64,000 nt of DNA from Mediterraneibacter massiliensis (GTDB lineage Bacteria > Bacillota > Clostridia > Lachnospirales > Lachnospiraceae), in assembly GCF_001487105.1 (NCBI RefSeq), contig NZ_LN913001.1, forward strand, positions 1 to 64,000. The letters are read 5' to 3'. This document shows, piece after piece, positions 5,906 to 51,194 of this stretch; within the stretch, counting starts at the first letter, position 1; each line of letters opens with the position of its first letter. A program made the position numbers and the translations under genes. The notes under the pieces were generated by a model, which ran no database searches, had not been told where the DNA came from, and was given only the letters and a program-made list of their open reading frames with translations.

Positions 5906-6607
5906 TTATCTGCTTTCCAGGTATTCTGCGATTCCATTTGAAATCGACTTTGCCACATCTTTTTGGTATTTTTCTGTAACCAATTTCTCCGCTTCCTCAT
6001 GATTACTCAAAAAACCACATTCCATAATAATAATCGGTGTTTTCGTCTTTTCCAAAAGATAATATGTATCGTTTGCTTTTGCCTGTCTGCTCCCTCTTTT
6101 ATCTGCTGTTTTTATCGATTCCTGCATAATTTCCGCTGCCTTTTTAGATTCCTGTGAATGTGTATAATAGAATACCTGCGCGCCATGAACAGAAGACTCA
6201 TGGTAACTGTTCTGGTGAATACTGACTGTAAGATCAGGACTATGTTCATTGATCATTCTTACCCTTGCTTTTAAATCTCCTACTTGTGAGTCTGCCAATC
6301 TTTCCTCATCTTCTCTTGTCATAATTACCTGTATCTCTTCTTTTTCCAGATATTTCTTCAAATATACAGCAATACTTAAATTTATATCCTTTTCTTTTGC
6401 GTTATTTACTCCTATCTTGCCGGGATCACCGCCACCATGTCCCGCATCTACGACAACTACAGGTTTTTCTCTGTCCGATATCGTTTTTCCTGCCGTCTCT
6501 ATTTCCGTATTTATGTGATCATATAAATATTCTCCGCCTATTCGGCAGGCAATCACTATTCCAAGCAGCAGCAATATCACTCCCGCGATTTTTACTTTTC
6601 TTTGCAA
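5906..6607 (-). CDS. N-acetylmuramoyl-L-alanine amidase, Amidase_3 (CwlD-like)
   Basis: About 233 aa using a TTG start at 6607, which sits 7 nt after GGAGG; the ATG at 6628 lies upstream of that site. One N-terminal membrane anchor is followed by a zinc amidase domain: His57 (DAGHGG), Glu72, His131 (SIHQN) and catalytic Glu196 (MECGFLSN). It cleaves the lactyl-peptide bond of peptidoglycan. CwlD-type enzymes act in spore cortex muramic-lactam formation, consistent with sporulation genes at 15-17 kb, but a vegetative role is possible. The ribosome binding site is inside a hairpin (6611-6655). Confidence 0.85.
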   Translation of the reverse strand: MQRKVKIAGVILLLLGIVIACRIGGEYLYDHINTEIETAGKTISDREKPVVVVDAGHGGGDPGKIGVNNAKEKDINLSIAVYLKKYLEKEEIQVIMTREDEERLADSQVGDLKARVRMINEHSPDLTVSIHQNSYHESSVHGAQVFYYTHSQESKKAAEIMQESIKTADKRGSRQAKANDTYYLLEKTKTPIIIMECGFLSNHEEAEKLVTEKYQKDVAKSISNGIAEYLESR

Positions 6608-37838: not shown

Positions 37839-38530
37839 GAGATATCCTCCACATGTTTGATATTATACTTTTTCCCGTAATATCTTGCTATCAAAGTTTT
37901 GTAAACAGTATGTAAAATGATCCTCCAATTTCTCATTTATTTGCATTGATGAATCACTTTGCTGTCCTCAAACAAAACAGAACCTTGGATCCGATTCTTT
38001 TTCAAATCAGTTCCAAACGAGCATTTCGTTTGTCATTAGCTGTCGCTAATCATTTTTGAATTGTATTAGCTGAACTTCATTCTCGAATGTTATTTTTTTA
38101 AGCGATATTTTTCAAAAAAAGCGCCCCACTATTTGCTTTTCAGCTAACAGTCGAACGCTTGTATCAGCGTCTCGTATAGGAATCGAACCTATAATTTAGT
38201 CTTAGGAGAACTTGCAACCAAATTAACTAACGTATCACCTAAGCTCCTCTCATACCCTGCGAAGTCCCTAATTTCCTGGGTTTTTTGAGGATTTTAACGG
38301 GATGGAATAGCCTCAAATTCCATCCCATTCCCTGACGTATTCTGCTGTGTACTTAGCATTTAATTAGCGACAATTTGATTTGAACTACGTTCAGCCACCA
38401 AGCAATTAGCAGGCTCTCTTCCCACAAAGAACGTAAAAAGACTATATGCATACACACTATGCACGGAACTCTTTTAGAGTATTTTACCACACATAAACCT
38501 TATTACGCAATTAGAAAGGAATTATTGTCT
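37839..38530. other. Noncoding boundary region upstream of the ICE genes
   Basis: About 690 bp without a gene. It contains a tRNA-like remnant (38167-38245) and a perfect 10-bp inverted repeat GGGATGGAAT/ATTCCATCCC (38299-38308 and 38317-38326). Such a segment could hold an att site, an origin of transfer or an element promoter; I cannot tell which. Confidence 0.45.
38167..38245 (-). pseudogene. tRNA-like remnant, Arg(CCU)-like
   Basis: The minus strand shows an intact T-arm (ATAGG-TTCGATT-CCTAT), a 7-nt anticodon loop CTCCTAA (anticodon CCU) on a 4-bp stem, and an acceptor-like ACGAGACG, but the 5' acceptor and D-arm do not pair. It looks like the 3' half of a tRNA gene, a typical integration target, or a decayed element-borne tRNA. 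Confidence 0.45.
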
Positions 38531-39745
38531 ATGGATTACCAATTAGAATTAAAACAAATTGTGGATTTTCCACGCTGCCGGATTTACCGGGAATTTATAC
38601 AAACGCTCATCAAGGACAGAAACATTCGTACAAACGGAAGTTCCTGTCTTTTTTATTTCCTGATTCTCTGCTCCTATGCAAACTACTCTTCATCCTACCG
38701 TAACATAGAACATCTGACCTATACTGTTGCTCCGGGAGAATGGATCTGCACACTGAAAGAACTGCAGCATCAGTTCCGTTTCCGGTTTCAGCACCAGGTC
38801 CTTTCTGTTCTGGATACCTTGGCAGAACAAAATTTCCTGACTTACACCTTGCATGAGAAAAATCGCATCATCAGATACAAGATCGTGGACTGGCCCAAAG
38901 ACAATACAGCGCTTTCCTACAATTTTCCCTGCAAAAAAGACATTGGATTTTTCTTCTTTCCAATCACAAATGTTCATAAGCTGATTCACATGGGAAAATG
39001 TTCCGAGATGGATGCCCTTCTGGATCTTTGGATCCATGCAGTCTATAATGATCCGTCTGTACGTTGTTCTGATTCCGGTCCGGTTGTTTACTTCAGAAAT
39101 CAGACCGGCAATCCACTCTTCAGTTATCAATACTTGGCAGAACGCTGGCAGCAATCCAAATCTTCCGTCTCACGTCTGCTAAAAAAACTAGAAAACAATG
39201 ACATGATAACTTTAATCTCTTATTCTGGAAAACATGGCAGCATGATCTATCTCAATAATTATCTGTCTGTCATGTTTAATATAAGTGACGTAATGATTGA
39301 CAAGGAGGAAATCGCTATGAAAATGGAACTGCCAATTCACATTCCTGACGAAGTACCTACTGAAGAAACTACCGTTTCCTGCGTTCCGGAATCTGTTGTT
39401 GATGAACAAATCATCGTTTCACAAGAAGGCTTTTGCGTTCCAGAACCGCACACAAAAACCATCGTCCGAAAAGTGGCTGAAATGCTGGAAACACAAGGCA
39501 TTGTGTGCTGTCGATGCCCAAAAGCCAAGTATATATTATCTCCATTATCAGCCTGCAAGGATATAGTATATAGATATTCACTACGTATTATCTGCCCTCT
39601 GGGAAGTGCATCTTACCATTTTGAACTAAAGATCAAACCGCAAAAACCGAAAGCTAAAACCACTCCGTCTGTGCGAACACAAACACAATCTTCTAGTCCA
39701 TCCTTTTCCGAAATACCGGAAATACTACTGAAGGGAGGTGAATAG
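38531..39745 (+). CDS. ICE protein with winged-helix domains, replication-initiator-like
   Basis: 404 aa with start at ATG 38531, 10 nt after AAAGGA; a longer frame to 38459 has no ribosome binding site. The N-terminal half has two winged-helix-like segments (YRNIEHLTYTVAPGEWICTLKELQHQF and YQYLAERWQQSKSSVSRLLKKLENN) reminiscent of RepA-type initiators or MarR-like regulators. The C-terminal third is unique. It opens the element's plus-strand gene series, where replication or regulatory proteins are expected. Function is inferred only. Confidence 0.6.
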   Translation: MDYQLELKQIVDFPRCRIYREFIQTLIKDRNIRTNGSSCLFYFLILCSYANYSSSYRNIEHLTYTVAPGEWICTLKELQHQFRFRFQHQVLSVLDTLAEQNFLTYTLHEKNRIIRYKIVDWPKDNTALSYNFPCKKDIGFFFFPITNVHKLIHMGKCSEMDALLDLWIHAVYNDPSVRCSDSGPVVYFRNQTGNPLFSYQYLAERWQQSKSSVSRLLKKLENNDMITLISYSGKHGSMIYLNNYLSVMFNISDVMIDKEEIAMKMELPIHIPDEVPTEETTVSCVPESVVDEQIIVSQEGFCVPEPHTKTIVRKVAEMLETQGIVCCRCPKAKYILSPLSACKDIVYRYSLRIICPLGSASYHFELKIKPQKPKAKTTPSVRTQTQSSSPSFSEIPEILLKGGE

Positions 39746-39747
39746 AT

Positions 39748-40278
39748 ATGGCAGGAAAACATTATCCACCTGTTGTATCACCCGAAGATAACCCGCTGTA
39801 TCACGATACATACAAACTGCTTCGGTGCTATCGGGATTCTACTTACAGTCTGAAGGTGGCTGTCCGGCAAGTAGAAATACAGTTTCAACTGGAATATAAG
39901 ACCAGCATAGACGAATTTCTGGACTCTATCTATACCGCTGGTGCCGACTTAACCGGAAGCCAAATAGAGGAATGGGCAAAAAGTATCTCCAGAAGCAATA
40001 AGATGATCAAGTTGCTGCTCTCTTCCGTTGATCTTCTCCGCAAAAATCACAAACATGGAGAACAGTATTACTGGATTTTATACTATGCCTTCCTCTCACC
40101 ACAGGAGTTGAAGAATACCGATGAAATTCTGGAGGCATTGGAAGAACATATTGCAAACATCTCCTACCGCACTTATTACCGAAAACGCCAGGCAGCAATC
40201 AATGCATTAAGCAGTATCCTTTGGGGATTTTCTGCAAAAGAAACCTTAGATACGCTAAATAAATTCTTCCCAGAATAG
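39748..40278 (+). CDS. ICE accessory protein, unknown
   Basis: 176 aa. GGGAGGTG lies inside the end of the previous gene, 9 nt before ATG, so they are coupled. Mostly helical, with no membrane segment. The RKRQAAINALSSILWGF segment near the C-terminus resembles the end of phage-type transcriptional activators of the ArpU/RinA sort, but the match is weak. It ends just before a promoter/attenuator region. Confidence 0.55.
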   Translation: MAGKHYPPVVSPEDNPLYHDTYKLLRCYRDSTYSLKVAVRQVEIQFQLEYKTSIDEFLDSIYTAGADLTGSQIEEWAKSISRSNKMIKLLLSSVDLLRKNHKHGEQYYWILYYAFLSPQELKNTDEILEALEEHIANISYRTYYRKRQAAINALSSILWGFSAKETLDTLNKFFPE

Positions 40279-40302
40279 AGATGGCATAATATTGTCACTA
40301 CA

Positions 40303-40402
40303 TTGACCTGTTTCTGCGATTGAAGGGGAATTTTACCCATGTTACAATAGGTATTGCTTATAGTATTCCTATTTTTCCCGCACCTGATATGGTGCTTTTT
40401 TT
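40303..40402 (+). promoter_or_regulatory. ICE promoter module A with leader terminator
   Basis: TTCTGCGATT (40312-40321), -35 TTGAAG (40320-40325), a 17-bp spacer holding the inverted repeat GGGGAATTTTACCC, and -10 TACAAT (40343-40348), extended by TG. About 30 nt into the transcript comes GCACC-TGATAT-GGTGC plus T7 (40380-40402), resembling a leader terminator. The same arrangement recurs at 50552-50668. Confidence 0.65.
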
Positions 40403-40534
40403 GTACCCGAAAACCAATCGCTGACAGCAAGATTCCTTCTGCTATACGTACAGCATACTTCTATCAAATAAGAAACGTAGATTGTACGTACAGCGTAAGT
40501 ACATTTTCTATATATGAACAGAAGGGAGATACCC

Positions 40535-41065
40535 ATGAAAACACGAAACGAACTCTACAATGGGGAAGGAGCCGAACTATTGCGATTTATCACTACATAT
40601 CACACACTTTTGTATGAACAAGCTTTACGGCTATTCCCCAAAAACAGAGATTCTATCAAATCTCTGATTACCAGTCTTGTCAAACAAGGTAGGATTATCC
40701 ACGACAAAGAGAATGACCTACTCTGTGACACTGCCGAATCAGCATCCAATCCGGATTATGGCATGATCGCCGCATTCTGGGTTCTATTGGACTTCAAAAA
40801 AGCAGTTGTCTACCATACAAGCGGAGATTTTCCAATAAAACTCAACTTTTTTTCAAAAGATGAATGGTATGAGATTTTATATATTCCACTGGAACAGGAA
40901 TATCTTATCAATCATGTAATGGAATCACAATCTGCAGACCAAGTAAAACGGCTGGTTGTCTTAGAAAATGAGGGGCAGGCTAGAAAGGTCACCATAGACA
41001 ATGTGGTAGCCTTTTGCTTAGTGGATACTACCAGCGGAGTTGTCAGTTACTATACAAAGAAATGA
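40535..41065 (+). CDS. ICE accessory protein, DUF5697-like
   Basis: 176 aa from ATG 40535, 7 nt after GGGAG. The beginning MKTRNELYNGEGAELLRFITT and the wHTH-like part (YEQALRLFPKNRDSIKSLITSLVKQGRI) suggest a DNA-binding N-terminus; the second half (SGDFPIKLNFFSKDEWYEILYI) resembles a small alpha/beta domain. It is recurrent in Tn1549-related elements; the DUF label is from memory and not checked. Transcribed from promoter module A. Confidence 0.6.
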   Translation: MKTRNELYNGEGAELLRFITTYHTLLYEQALRLFPKNRDSIKSLITSLVKQGRIIHDKENDLLCDTAESASNPDYGMIAAFWVLLDFKKAVVYHTSGDFPIKLNFFSKDEWYEILYIPLEQEYLINHVMESQSADQVKRLVVLENEGQARKVTIDNVVAFCLVDTTSGVVSYYTKK

Positions 41066-46423: not shown

Positions 46424-48025
46424 TCAGACATCGTATTTTTCTTCACACTTAATACAATATGTACCTGATCCCCCTCTCATTTCTTCAGGGCACTTTTCTC
46501 CACATCCTGGACACACAAATCCATTTTCATTCGTAGTCATGCAGTCATCGCATATAGGATCCCCTTTATAGTCTCTATAAAATGATTCCCATTCATACCC
46601 TATTTTTTTTCCACATTCCGCACAATATATATCAAAATCAGAATCGCCATCCTCATACGACTCCTCTGTAATAGATGCAGTCTCAATCTCTGCATCTTGA
46701 TATTCAAAATTCTCATTCCAGTTAATTACTGTATCCAATGCTCTTGTGACTAACACTTCAACTTTACCAGAACACTCATGTCTTCTTCCTGGAGAAGTAA
46801 TTATTTCTTTTGTATCGTCATCTCTTCCCCAGTATTCATATGATACACCTGATATTCTTATAAAATAAGAAATAATATATGTTGCCGTACCAGAATCTAC
46901 ATCTATTCTTTCAAAATCATCAAATTCAACATCATCTAACTCCCACTCATCTACTCCCTCCGAACCAATATGAGAATTATTCTCATCAATAAAACTTGTT
47001 CCAGAGTAAGCAATTTCGCTCCAAACAGATTCAAATACTTGCCTCTGTACTTCATCTACAAAAAATTCATCTGTAGCATTCAAAATCAATGATATTGCAT
47101 CTGGAGCCTCAATCATAAACTCCCTCGCAATTGCTTGATATAGATCATATCCAACCAACGGAATCAATTTTAAATTTTTGCCTGTGTCTTTTCTAATCTT
47201 GGTCTTACGCAAAAATTCTTTAACTAATTCTTTTCTAAATAGAATTCTCCCATCATCTAATTTTTCCCACCAATCTTCTTTCACATCATCTGTAACAAAG
47301 ATAATGTTTTTATTATTCAATACCGCGTATTCATACGTCTCAGCCCAAACAATTAAATCTCCATACTTACTAACGCCATCTTTTTTTGCATCTTTATACC
47401 CCGGAGGTGTTTGTGACTTATATCTATACTCACCTTCCTTGCATAGTTTATATATAAAGGATGCAGAAGGTTCGGGCATTTTGCGAAATGAATTCATTAA
47501 ATTAAGAACTTTATCTTCGTCCCAGTTATTCAAGAAATCCAAATTTTGGTGTTCCTCAAAATATGAATCAAATTCATCTTGAAGTTCGCCAACCTTGTCT
47601 ATCAAATTATAAACAAGTCTATCTATATCTGGATAACCATTTCTTGATAGTTCATGACATTGGCTCTTTATTTTATTTTCTATAATTGAAACAAGTTGAC
47701 TACACGCTTCAACCGATTTCTTTATGGATTTTTGTTTTTTACTATATTCTTCTTTTCTATGTTTCTCATATTCCCAATAAACATTAAATGGAATACAAAC
47801 ATAATCCTTTATACTATCTAGACATTCCAAAACAAATTCCGCATAATCTGGCGATGAACGATATATTTTTAAAAGAATATTTGCATCTAATACAACAACA
47901 TAGTTCTTATGCTGAAGAAGATCCTTTAGTGCAATCATTGAATTACTTTGTCTTTCTTCATCATTTATTTCATTAGAACTTTTAACTTTTTCATCTTCCA
48001 ATCCTACTTTAATTTTATTATCCAT
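46424..48025 (-). CDS. Large PIN-like-domain protein with C-terminal zinc ribbons
   Basis: 533 aa. An N-terminal PIN-like nuclease domain (about 38-260): VVVLDANILLKIY supplies the first Asp, NVYWEYEKH a Glu, DLIVWAETYEYA and IIFVTDDVKEDWW the remaining acids, similar to the PIN_8/DUF4935 group. A middle domain (about 300-455) is unassigned. The C-terminus has Cys pairs CAECGKK, CDDC, CPGCGEKC and CIKC for zinc. It is the last gene of a minus-strand cargo operon inside the ICE, 18 nt after the nucleoside phosphorylase. An RNase or defence role is plausible but unproven. Confidence 0.75.
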   Translation of the reverse strand: MDNKIKVGLEDEKVKSSNEINDEERQSNSMIALKDLLQHKNYVVVLDANILLKIYRSSPDYAEFVLECLDSIKDYVCIPFNVYWEYEKHRKEEYSKKQKSIKKSVEACSQLVSIIENKIKSQCHELSRNGYPDIDRLVYNLIDKVGELQDEFDSYFEEHQNLDFLNNWDEDKVLNLMNSFRKMPEPSASFIYKLCKEGEYRYKSQTPPGYKDAKKDGVSKYGDLIVWAETYEYAVLNNKNIIFVTDDVKEDWWEKLDDGRILFRKELVKEFLRKTKIRKDTGKNLKLIPLVGYDLYQAIAREFMIEAPDAISLILNATDEFFVDEVQRQVFESVWSEIAYSGTSFIDENNSHIGSEGVDEWELDDVEFDDFERIDVDSGTATYIISYFIRISGVSYEYWGRDDDTKEIITSPGRRHECSGKVEVLVTRALDTVINWNENFEYQDAEIETASITEESYEDGDSDFDIYCAECGKKIGYEWESFYRDYKGDPICDDCMTTNENGFVCPGCGEKCPEEMRGGSGTYCIKCEEKYDV

Positions 48026-48043
48026 AACTTCTCCTGTAATCGC

Positions 48044-48808
48044 TTACAATACTAACCCAATTTCAAATGCCAGCAACATATATTTCTCTGCCTCAGTAAA
48101 CCCATATAATTCCAAATCCCGCATTTCCCATTTTTCTGAACTTAGATTATCTGCTCCATACAAAAATTGCACAAACGGAATCTCCCTGTACTTGGAGACA
48201 GCCAGCATAGATGCACATTCCATTTCAACCACCAGACAGCCTTCTTCTCTACGTTCCTGAATAACAGGTACAGTTTCTCTATAAATTCCATCTGAAGTCC
48301 ATGTTTTTCCTTTTACATAAGAATATCCACAGGCATTCAGTACATCTTCTAATACGTAAATCGCATGATCCTCCATGTCTATTTCCTCTGATGGCGCTAT
48401 GTAATGGTAGCTTGTTCCTTCGTCACGAATTGCAGAAACTGGAATCACTATATGATCTTTTACCTTCTCGTCATCCAACACCCCGCAGGAACCAAATAAG
48501 ACAAACTTCTTTGCTCCCATCGCTACAACTTCCTCAAATCCAGACACACATGCCGGCGCACCGACTCTGGACAAATAAAACGCAATCTCTTGATTTTTAT
48601 ATCTCATCTTATAAACGGGCATCGCTCCGTTTGCTGTGTAAAGCTCTGCAATTTTTTCTACATCTTTTAAAGAAGAAAATTTTTGAATGATTTTTTCCGA
48701 GAATGTGGAAACACAGATTTCTGGAAAGTTCTCTATTTTTTTCGTAGTATCAACTGGTGTGAACAACGCCGGCTCTGTTATTTTGTCCCTTTGAAAAATA
48801 GTTTTCAT
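48044..48808 (-). CDS. Nucleoside phosphorylase family protein
   Basis: 254 aa. The PNP/UDP phosphorylase fold is indicated by YLSRVGAPACVSGFEEVVAMGAKKFVLFGSCG and the nucleoside-binding VVEMECASMLAVS. It would split or bind a nucleoside with phosphate; the base preference is not readable. A good GGAGG site precedes the start, and it lies between the CPBP gene and the PIN gene with short gaps in one operon. Family members range from housekeeping salvage enzymes to nucleotide-binding parts of defence systems. Confidence 0.82.
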   Translation of the reverse strand: MKTIFQRDKITEPALFTPVDTTKKIENFPEICVSTFSEKIIQKFSSLKDVEKIAELYTANGAMPVYKMRYKNQEIAFYLSRVGAPACVSGFEEVVAMGAKKFVLFGSCGVLDDEKVKDHIVIPVSAIRDEGTSYHYIAPSEEIDMEDHAIYVLEDVLNACGYSYVKGKTWTSDGIYRETVPVIQERREEGCLVVEMECASMLAVSKYREIPFVQFLYGADNLSSEKWEMRDLELYGFTEAEKYMLLAFEIGLVL

Positions 48809-48845
48809 ACTGTTCCTCCTTTTTCTAAAACCTATAATTTATCAA

Positions 48846-49624
48846 TTATTTCTTCTTCATAAATATATAAATTACGCATACAAAGACTGAAGCGAATACT
48901 ATTACTAATCCATATCGTAATGTCGCTGTCAATTCAGGTAGGATCGGAATTATAAAATCAGGTAGATTTGCAAATATATGTGCTGCTATTGCAGGTAACA
49001 AAGATTTTGTTCTTATACAAATTACTCCCAATATCACACCTACTATTAATGAAGCCAATACTAAAACCACACCGCCTGCCATTATATGAAGAAATGCAAA
49101 AAGTAATGCACTTAACACAATCGAAACCATTACCCCATGTTCCTTGCGTAGTTGTGTTAAAATAATTCCTCTGCAAATAAATTCTTCCGTTATTGGTGCT
49201 ACGAGTAAAAGAGCTATGATTTGCAATATCATTCCCAAGTGTGGCATTAACCCAGAATAATACTCCACTCCATTCTGTACTATCTTAGTATTTTCAAAGC
49301 TCATATTATAGGTAAGTAATGAAAACGCCATAGAATATGTAAATGTAATTACACAAGGTAGAATATGGTTTCTAATATCTACTCTTTTTGCCTGAAGTTC
49401 TTCTAACAAGCTTTTTTACGAAGTTTAATGAAAAGAATTAGTATAATAACAGTTAAAATATTACTAATTACAGTCAAAAGCATCATATTGTTATTCACAA
49501 ACATTTCCATCTGCTCTTTGCTTCCACTTGCAGTACCTACTACCATTGAAACCATAGACATTATGATCATTTGGAATACCATATAAAAGAGTATATATCC
49601 TATGGATTTTAGAATACTTTTCAT
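48846..49624 (-). pseudogene. CPBP-family intramembrane protease gene with a one-base frameshift
   Basis: Two overlapping frames belong together: 49624-49403 (73 aa, two membrane helices, ending IKLRKKAC) and 49409-48846 (continuing LLEELQAKRV). The second half has the CPBP/Abi motifs EEFICRG, FAFLHIM and HIFANLPDF, so the catalytic part is complete. The join falls on an A6 run (minus strand CGTAAAAAAGC); one more A would restore a single protein of about 260 aa. It may be a mutation, a sequencing error, or slippage-controlled expression. CPBP proteins often confer bacteriocin self-immunity or protein processing. Confidence 0.75.
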
Positions 49625-49656
49625 AACCTTCCCCTCACTTTCTATTTCTGTCCGTC

Positions 49657-50415
49657 CTAATAATACTTTTCAAATCGACACTGTTCTTTCACTTCTTTTC
49701 CTAATAAGGTAATTGCTTTTTGCGGACAACTACTAATACAGCGATAGCACATCGTACAATTTTTACCACTCATTGCTTTTCCATTAGAAATTGAAATATT
49801 ATGCATTGGACATAACGTTGCACACAATCCACAACCAATACAGCTTTCGTGAATCATCAGCTTATCTGTATAGTTCTGCGTTTTTCCATAAAACCAAAGT
49901 CTTTGTCCAAATAGTCCTACCAAATGAGAAATCCAGGTTATTCCTTCCTTCGGATAGTTTCCACGCTTAATTTCCTGTGAAACAGTTTCTATTTTTTCAT
50001 CCGCTTCTCTTACAATTTTCCTATTCTCTTCAATAGACTTTTTTAATAATTTACTGTCACAAACAGAATCCGGCATCTTTATATGAAGTCCTCCAAGAAT
50101 AATTGCTCCATATTTTTTTAACAATCTTGCAGTACAGCCAGCACCATCGCCACTAAATGCCCCCATCGTCGCAACACACAATATTTTCTTATCTTTCCAT
50201 AAAGTAGGATTTTTCTTAATAAAGTCCCTCACCATATATGGCGCATTAGAATACTGTGTCGGATACCCCAGTAAAATCATATCATTTCTTTTTATTTCTT
50301 CACCAGTGTTACGGCTCTCTATTGGTATTGCCTTTGCAGATGGATCTAATAAAGCTGTTAATTTTTCCACGCAATGCTTTGTATTGCCCGTACCACTTAA
50401 ATATACACCGAGCAT
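49657..50415 (-). CDS. EFR1-type flavodoxin-ferredoxin fusion protein
   Basis: 252 aa from ATG 50415, 8 nt after GAGGAG; the longer upstream frame lacks a site. Residues 1-150 are a flavodoxin-like FMN domain (YLSGTGNTKHC phosphate loop, YPTQYSNAPYMV). Residues about 180-240 hold two [4Fe-4S] ferredoxin motifs (CIGCGLCATLCP and CTMCYRCISSCP). It would transfer single electrons in anaerobic redox metabolism. It is the first gene of the cargo operon; the upstream region (50416-50551) shows AT-rich promoter-like DNA only. Confidence 0.88.
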   Translation of the reverse strand: MLGVYLSGTGNTKHCVEKLTALLDPSAKAIPIESRNTGEEIKRNDMILLGYPTQYSNAPYMVRDFIKKNPTLWKDKKILCVATMGAFSGDGAGCTARLLKKYGAIILGGLHIKMPDSVCDSKLLKKSIEENRKIVREADEKIETVSQEIKRGNYPKEGITWISHLVGLFGQRLWFYGKTQNYTDKLMIHESCIGCGLCATLCPMHNISISNGKAMSGKNCTMCYRCISSCPQKAITLLGKEVKEQCRFEKYY

Positions 50416-50551
50416 TCTTCTCATCTCCTCACTATAAGCGAATCTTTTAGTTTTTATTATACACTCACACTTTTTCATCCGCAATCTCCCTCAAATGCTA
50501 TTTTCTCTCTTTGTCTCTAATCCGGCACATCAATGTCATTATCTGGCACAG

Positions 50552-50668
50552 TTCTGCGATTTACAGGGAAATCTACCCATGCTAGAATGATACTGTCAAA
50601 AAAATATGCAAAGCAGGACACGTCTTTTCCGGAAATCAGCCTCACTTCCGGGTATAGGCGTGTTTTTG
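50552..50668 (+). promoter_or_regulatory. ICE promoter module B with leader terminator
   Basis: TTCTGCGATT (50552-50561), -35 TTTACA (50560-50565), a 17-bp spacer with GGGAAATCTACCC, and -10 TAGAAT (50583-50588). The leader then has ACACGTC/GGCGTGT (50618-50624 and 50657-50663) with inner CGGAA/TTCCG pairing and a T5 run. A further hairpin, AGGGCAAGGTGA paired with TCACTTTGCCCT, lies at 50761-50790, just before the ribosome binding site of the pilin gene. Confidence 0.65.
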
Positions 50669-50813
50669 TTTGCAGGAAAGGAGTCCGTTACAACTGAATA
50701 TAAAATGCTTCCCAATGTATTGACCAGCCGGAAGCTATTGAGGCAGGAAACTATAAGCACAGGGCAAGGTGATGTATTTCACTTTGCCCTCTTTATATGA
50801 AGGAGGTTTTTGC

Positions 50814-51194
50814 ATGAAATATCATGTATTCAAAGATTCACCGCCAGGCAAAAAACGCCATCGGGATTATGGAAAATATCTGTACGCAGGCTTTCTGATG
50901 TTCACCCTGATTGCCTGTAATGTGCAGCCAGTTATGGCTGCTACTATCTGGGACAAAGCTTCAGAAATCATGAAAGACGTATACAACCAGATCATTCTAA
51001 TTTCCACGATTGCTGCTGTCGTAACCGCATCTGTTGCACTATTACTAATGAATTTTTCAAAAAGCGGAAAAACCGTAGATGAATCCCGCGCATGGCTCAA
51101 ACGAATCATCATTACCTGGGCTATCTTGAATGGGCTCGGATTTATCATGGCTTACATCACACCATTCTTCGCAGGTGGAAAATGGAATGGATAA
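50814..51194 (+). CDS. VirB2-like small channel/pilin protein (Maff2-type)
   Basis: 126 aa from ATG 50814, 7 nt after AAGGAGG. A signal-like helix (about 22-42, ending PVMAATIW) and two further hydrophobic helices (about 60-80 and 95-115) match the small membrane proteins that precede VirB6 in Gram-positive conjugation operons. Probably located in the membrane as a channel component. First gene of the second transfer operon. Confidence 0.75.
   Translation: MKYHVFKDSPPGKKRHRDYGKYLYAGFLMFTLIACNVQPVMAATIWDKASEIMKDVYNQIILISTIAAVVTASVALLLMNFSKSGKTVDESRAWLKRIIITWAILNGLGFIMAYITPFFAGGKWNG

Follow-up and report, generated by a model that had tools for sequence, protein, structure and literature searches.

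At pR' of phage lambda, the Q protein is loaded at promoter DNA and rides with the polymerase through the terminator. The gene of an Ltr activator lies immediately before its target promoter, at which the protein binds four imperfect direct repeats, and the Alt sites of TP901-1 lie at -76 to -32 (PMC13123087). In the TP901-1 record, the Alt site reads TTGGGATAAAA-ACGACACGAAA-AAGGCACGAAA-TTGGAGTGTTG, with a period of 11. A review of the control of conjugation in Gram-positive bacteria contains none of the words direct repeat, antitermination and terminator (PMC6540685).

The window, i.e., the whole stretch of 64,000 nucleotides analyzed here, carries two sigma-A-type promoters located 10.2 kb apart, hereafter modules A (40312-40348) and B (50552-50588), which have in common the box TTCTGCGATT, a 17-bp spacer, an extended -10 and a leader terminator. 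Judging from sequence, they represent one promoter cassette, present in duplicate in an integrative conjugative element (ICE) of Lachnospiraceae, which extends past the window. The promoters and the first genes of the two operons are as follows.

40320-40348, plus strand: module A promoter, TTGAAG, 17 bp, TACAAT, with TG extension; conserved in relatives
40535-41065, plus strand: DUF5697 gene (domain assignment), first gene of operon A
50560-50588, plus strand: module B promoter, TTTACA, 17-bp spacer with GGGAAATCTACCC, TAGAAT, with TG extension; conserved in relatives
50814-51194, plus strand: first gene of operon B, coding for a 126-aa membrane protein

Operon A encodes, in this order, DUF5697, DUF6100, a winged-helix protein, a VirD4-type coupling protein and an S1-domain protein (to 45915). 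In operon B, the gene of the membrane protein is followed by those of TrbL (TrbL_4), a lysozyme/C39 protein, DUF5038, a VirB4-like ATPase and a CnaB protein. The interval from the S1 gene to module B bears, on the minus strand (46424-50484), PIN_8, phosphorylase, CAAX protease and flavodoxin/ferredoxin genes, which were not found in the relatives compared, bar one weak flavodoxin match, and are likely cargo. Between the terminator of leader A and the DUF5697 gene lies a second 11-bp phased array (40439-40505), which is TACGTACAGC-like in the window and of a different sequence (ACGTG) in the related locus L216; this array is a possible second regulator site or oriT. The element also encodes a sigma-70-family protein (L012:904-1503, corresponding to contig C5 63903-64502).

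The first-pass annotation had reported the same box at two operons about 10 kb apart, and TTCTGCGATT is indeed identical at 50552-50561 (module B) and 40312-40321 (module A). It had also reported the same repeat within a 17-bp spacer: both spacers are 17 bp long, but their sequences are similar rather than identical, GGGAAATCTACCC in B (50566-50578) versus GGGAATTTTACCC in A, with 2 of 13 bases different. The hairpin with a T-run described in the leader was found in both leader A and leader B. The module observation is thus real and ordered, and holds in outline. Besides their TG, the promoters of modules B and A match the consensus at 10 and 9 of 12 positions, respectively. The proposed motif search of the genome gave a split answer. 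The full combination TTCTGCGATT-N4-GGG-N7-CCC occurs in two places in the 3.07-Mb genome, modules A and B only (reversed control, 0), whereas the single boxes occur by chance: TTCTGCGATT by itself is also found at 5924 and 26538, and matches to GGGAAATCTACCC that allow up to 3 mismatches are as frequent as expected by chance (15 versus 14.2). Since the whole module is present only twice in the genome, a host regulon was rejected. A sigma-54 promoter, of which TGGCAC...TGC is a look-alike, was also rejected, as nearly all copies have a GG-to-GC distance of 9 instead of 10 and the extended -10 never varies (by eye).

The conserved signal is bigger than the box initially described. TGGCAC-like repeats recur every 10-11 bp up to the -35, a step that had been overlooked (11-bp steps in module A), and TTCTGCGATT is the last repeat unit (TGCGAT) of the array fused to the -35. 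The repeats of the window's own modules are imperfect:

40282-40320, plus strand: module A phased repeats, TGGCAT 40282, TGTCAC 40293, TGACCT 40304, TGCGAT 40315
50512-50560, plus strand: module B phased repeats, TGTCTC 50512, CGGCAC 50523, TGTCAT 50534, TGGCAC 50544, TGCGAT 50555

Scanning of species genomes with TrbL yielded 80 loci, mostly from Lachnospiraceae and other Clostridia. In 75 of these loci, the module precedes TrbL (operon) by 500-900 bp, and three of the five lacking it have less than 260 bp of upstream sequence. Both modules are present in relatives of the same genus and of the same family. In a conservation profile of 44 representatives (less than 85% alike; numbering approximate), the strongly conserved upstream part comprises TGGCAC at -51 to -46, TGC at -40 to -38 and TTG at the -35, and the downstream part comprises G-T-A-A-A at about -28 to -24, with G at -28 in 42 of 44, and TG plus TAnAAT at the -10. 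The TAT(G)CT-N-AAAA stretch around the start is also strongly conserved. Relative to TTYTGC, repeats start at -8, -19, -29/-30 and -40, and further copies of TGGCAC precede the proximal one by 11, 21-22 and 32-33 bp, with the array on one helix face. Distal TGGCAC matches amount to 56 versus 5.6 in shuffles (shuffle maximum, 13).

A common regulator, not yet named, had been proposed for the two operons. The conservation of the module and an HTH that tracks the repeats, that of the protein p39, support this proposal, and p39 is probably the switch in question for the transfer operons.

38459-39745, plus strand: HTH_36/replication-initiator-like protein, directly before p39; missing from some p39-bearing elements
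39748-40278, plus strand: p39, 176-aa candidate regulator with the C-terminal HTH 'ISYRTYYRKRQAAI' and an all-helical AF2 model

The p39 gene is directly upstream of module A (stop at 40278, repeats from 40282), as in many relatives, and all relative elements with sufficient flanking DNA carry p39, even where the repeats are not TGGCAC. Comparison of p39 with Pfam gave no significant match; DUF1492 matches the family with an E of 0.075 and in 3 of 30 only, and the profile match to phrog_36 'transcriptional regulator' is weak (E 0.0027). In a viral library, fold matches have a probability of about 1.0 but E values of at least 9e-3 (best 9e-3), and these weak neighbours are phage regulators/activators, DUF1492 and sigma-region-4-like proteins. 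A fold search of the PDB library returned no match to Q or to any other solved regulator. The HTH_36 protein was rejected as the binder because it is missing from elements that retain p39. Distal sigma-70-like, XRE and AbrB/SpoVT-like genes were set aside as they were not found in several module-bearing elements, an exclusion that is weak given that some of the compared stretches end early.

A search of 783 genomes of the class and order with the p39 profile revealed 11-bp arrays right behind divergent p39 homologs across Clostridia, the array sequence differing between lineages. The best lag was 11 in 34 of 57 loci with a p39 homolog and in no control stretch, controls being taken inside the gene. 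Repeat cores behind the divergent homologs (GAGAC, CCGAC, GAAC, GGCAC or GGAAT) go with the type of helix: the HTHs RTYYRK and RHYYRLR pair with GGCAC repeats, SRSTYFRE with GAGAC, ERSTYYDKK with CCGAC and ERT-FY with GAAC. Likewise, repeats are TGCGAT with the helix HRATYFRWR (G316/L178) and TTGGGA with the helix SSSTYYRKR (L150), and in L170 both helix and repeats are different. With the rest of the protein removed, array distance follows helix distance across 55 non-redundant loci (partial Mantel r = 0.31, p = 0.0005, a significance inflated by shared ancestry among loci). Although shared descent weakens this p-value, one contrast runs counter to overall relatedness: G374, with 27% identity to the p39 of the window, has a YYR-type helix and keeps TGGCAC, whereas G316, with 38% identity, has a changed helix and has not kept it. 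The longest arrays seen, about ten 11-bp repeat copies before the promoter, lie downstream of the p39 homolog in L191 and L233; their repeats are TTGGAATTAAG-like, and TGAGACTAAT/TGACACAAGAT-like.

Beyond the promoters, both transcripts run into a structured leader.

40350-40408, plus strand: module A initial transcribed region (GGTATTGCTTATAGT) and leader terminator, stem 40380-40395, T-run 40396-40402
50589-50613, plus strand: module B initial transcribed region (GATACTGTCAAAAAAATATGCAAAG), conserved
50617-50669, plus strand: module B leader terminator, a stem with T-run 50663-50667 and GCCUC in the terminal loop (50639-50643)
50740-50744, plus strand: GAGGC, complement of the loop motif GCCUC; also present at a downstream place in almost every B leader of close relatives
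50761-50806, plus strand: second hairpin (50761-50790) and Shine-Dalgarno pairing, CCTC/GAGG over AAGGAGG (50800-50806)

An intrinsic terminator, defined as lying within 130 nt of the -10 and passing an energy threshold, follows 70 of 73 distinct modules versus 6 of 73 shuffled ones and 14% of random windows; that of module A in the window falls just under the threshold and was seen separately as GCACC-TGATAT-GGTGC-T7 (40380-40402). In close relatives, the B-leader stem covaries, with 5 of 8 pairs changed on both sides. The leader hairpin had been put forward together with an antitermination step, and of this pair the gated leader stands on the near-universal terminators and the covarying B stems, while antitermination itself is a prediction. 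No Rfam family reached its gathering score in the leaders, and the DUF2800 RNA, considered as a leader family, was far below threshold. No NusG/LoaP paralog was found in the genome or the element; the single NusG-domain gene, on contig C4, is outside the element, which led us to reject antitermination of the leaders by LoaP. The Shine-Dalgarno sequence of the first B gene, AAGGAGG, has a potential pairing partner in CCTCTTT (50788-50806 region).

These features fit a mechanism that we hold to be fairly probable, in which p39 binds the arrays and switches on both transfer operons, and regulated read-through serves as a second step. p39 would bind the row of TGGCAC-like repeats, one helical turn apart on one DNA face from about -83 to -35, and would turn on operon A (DNA processing/coupling) and operon B (mating pore), an action modelled on that of the phage late activators Alt and Ltr, which turn on packaging genes. 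Each transcript would then reach an intrinsic terminator roughly 30-80 nt past its start. Since there is a terminator in each leader, a second step would be required for read-through, letting the polymerase pass before the transfer genes are made, and the candidates for opening this gate are p39 itself, the S1-domain protein and leader RNA. Repeats, phasing, promoter, terminators, conservation and the co-variation of the p39 HTH with the repeats constitute the sequence-level basis of this mechanism, from which we infer that p39 is the binder and the activator and that read-through of the terminators is regulated.

Control of the read-through by RNA, through the S1-domain protein, pairing of GCCUC with GAGGC, or pairing of leaders A and B, is compatible with the p39 mechanism; it is doubtful yet quite conceivable. 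All aligned B leaders of close relatives have the same GCCUC (GCCTC) in the loop despite the covarying stems, and this motif may pair with the downstream GAGGC at 50740-50744; it is however missing from more distant B leaders. The S1-domain protein is conserved in the relatives compared. In leader B, GGAAACTATAAGCA (50744-50758) is nearly the reverse complement of the first nucleotides of transcript A, a type of match that extends to 17 bp without mismatch in L110 and is at chance level in most elements; trans pairing of the two leaders was rejected, its complementarity being clearly above chance in 2 of 8 elements only.

The promoters seem good enough to fire without an activator, and p39 could therefore repress or antiterminate instead. 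Because of this strong promoter consensus, with its conserved extended -10 and -35, a Q-like role is a serious rival, even if we place it on the unlikely side: the promoters would be constitutive, and p39, loaded on promoter DNA, would ride past the leader terminator. The conserved initial transcribed region, the similar placement of the terminator in nearly all modules and the extension of the conserved signal into the -35/spacer region (G at -28) are all consistent with such a role. Against it, the sites are mainly upstream of the -35, as for phage activators, and the fold of p39 matches neither Q nor another solved regulator of the PDB library. Moreover, the pause element of lambda is farther from the -10 than the conserved TATGCT is here.

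Binding of p39 or another protein to the array as a repressor, with a terminator that merely cuts leakage, is improbable. The overlap of the array with the -35 and the apparent intrinsic strength of the promoters would suit repression, but the position and phasing of the array equal those of known phage activators, and the proteins whose folds weakly resemble that of p39 carry annotations as phage activators and sigma-region-4-like proteins. Finally, it is very improbable that a dimeric repressor uses the spacer palindrome GGGTAAATTTACCC as its operator, or that the spacer repeat is a conserved regulator site as had been suggested, because the palindrome, perfect or near-perfect in a few module-A copies and in G070, is unconserved beyond them, is not significant in the window's own modules, reaches p <= 0.05 in 3 of 44 spacers (mean of 4.09 pairs versus 4.00 in shuffles) and shows no genome-wide enrichment (97 matches versus 98 in the control).

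With p39, a candidate master regulator, its putative sites and its two target operons become nameable for this group of elements, which occur in many gut Lachnospiraceae and relatives. As HTH and repeat co-vary across many lineages, the recognition code lends itself to direct testing. The boldest generalization, a large Clostridia-wide family of element-encoded regulators that would read 11-bp phased repeats by an evolving one-helix code and act as both activator and antiterminator at attenuated promoters, in a phage-late-type switch opening conjugation operons, is unlikely.

Compared with described systems, the ICE modules share with lambda pR' a regulator site at the promoter, a conserved initial transcribed region and a terminator shortly downstream, but they differ by a putative regulator without a Q fold match, an array mostly upstream of the -35 and an antitermination that we only infer. 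They share with the operons of LoaP, the NusG paralog of Firmicutes, a long operon, a leader terminator and structured RNA, but the sole NusG-domain gene is outside the element. The closest likeness is to the late activators of phages (TP901-1 Alt, phi13 Ltr of the LtrC family, RinA and ArpU/DUF1492), in which a small regulator is encoded just upstream of its promoter and about four imperfect direct repeats precede the -35 of a sigma-A promoter. Unlike these, the ICE regulator would control conjugation operons from two promoters, with a terminator after each. The likeness to TP901-1 Plate lies in the 11-bp period and the GACAC/GGCAC cores, not in the whole spacing, as this promoter is not picked out by a gapless matrix built from the ICE modules. 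The helix in which the protein ends carries YYRFRKDI in Alt and YYRKRQAAI in p39, but profile comparison detects no homology between the two (hhalign probability 1.5%). By analogy, p39 would thus work like Alt and Ltr, with no claim of membership in their family, and this likeness hints at a late-gene type of switch common to phages and conjugative elements.
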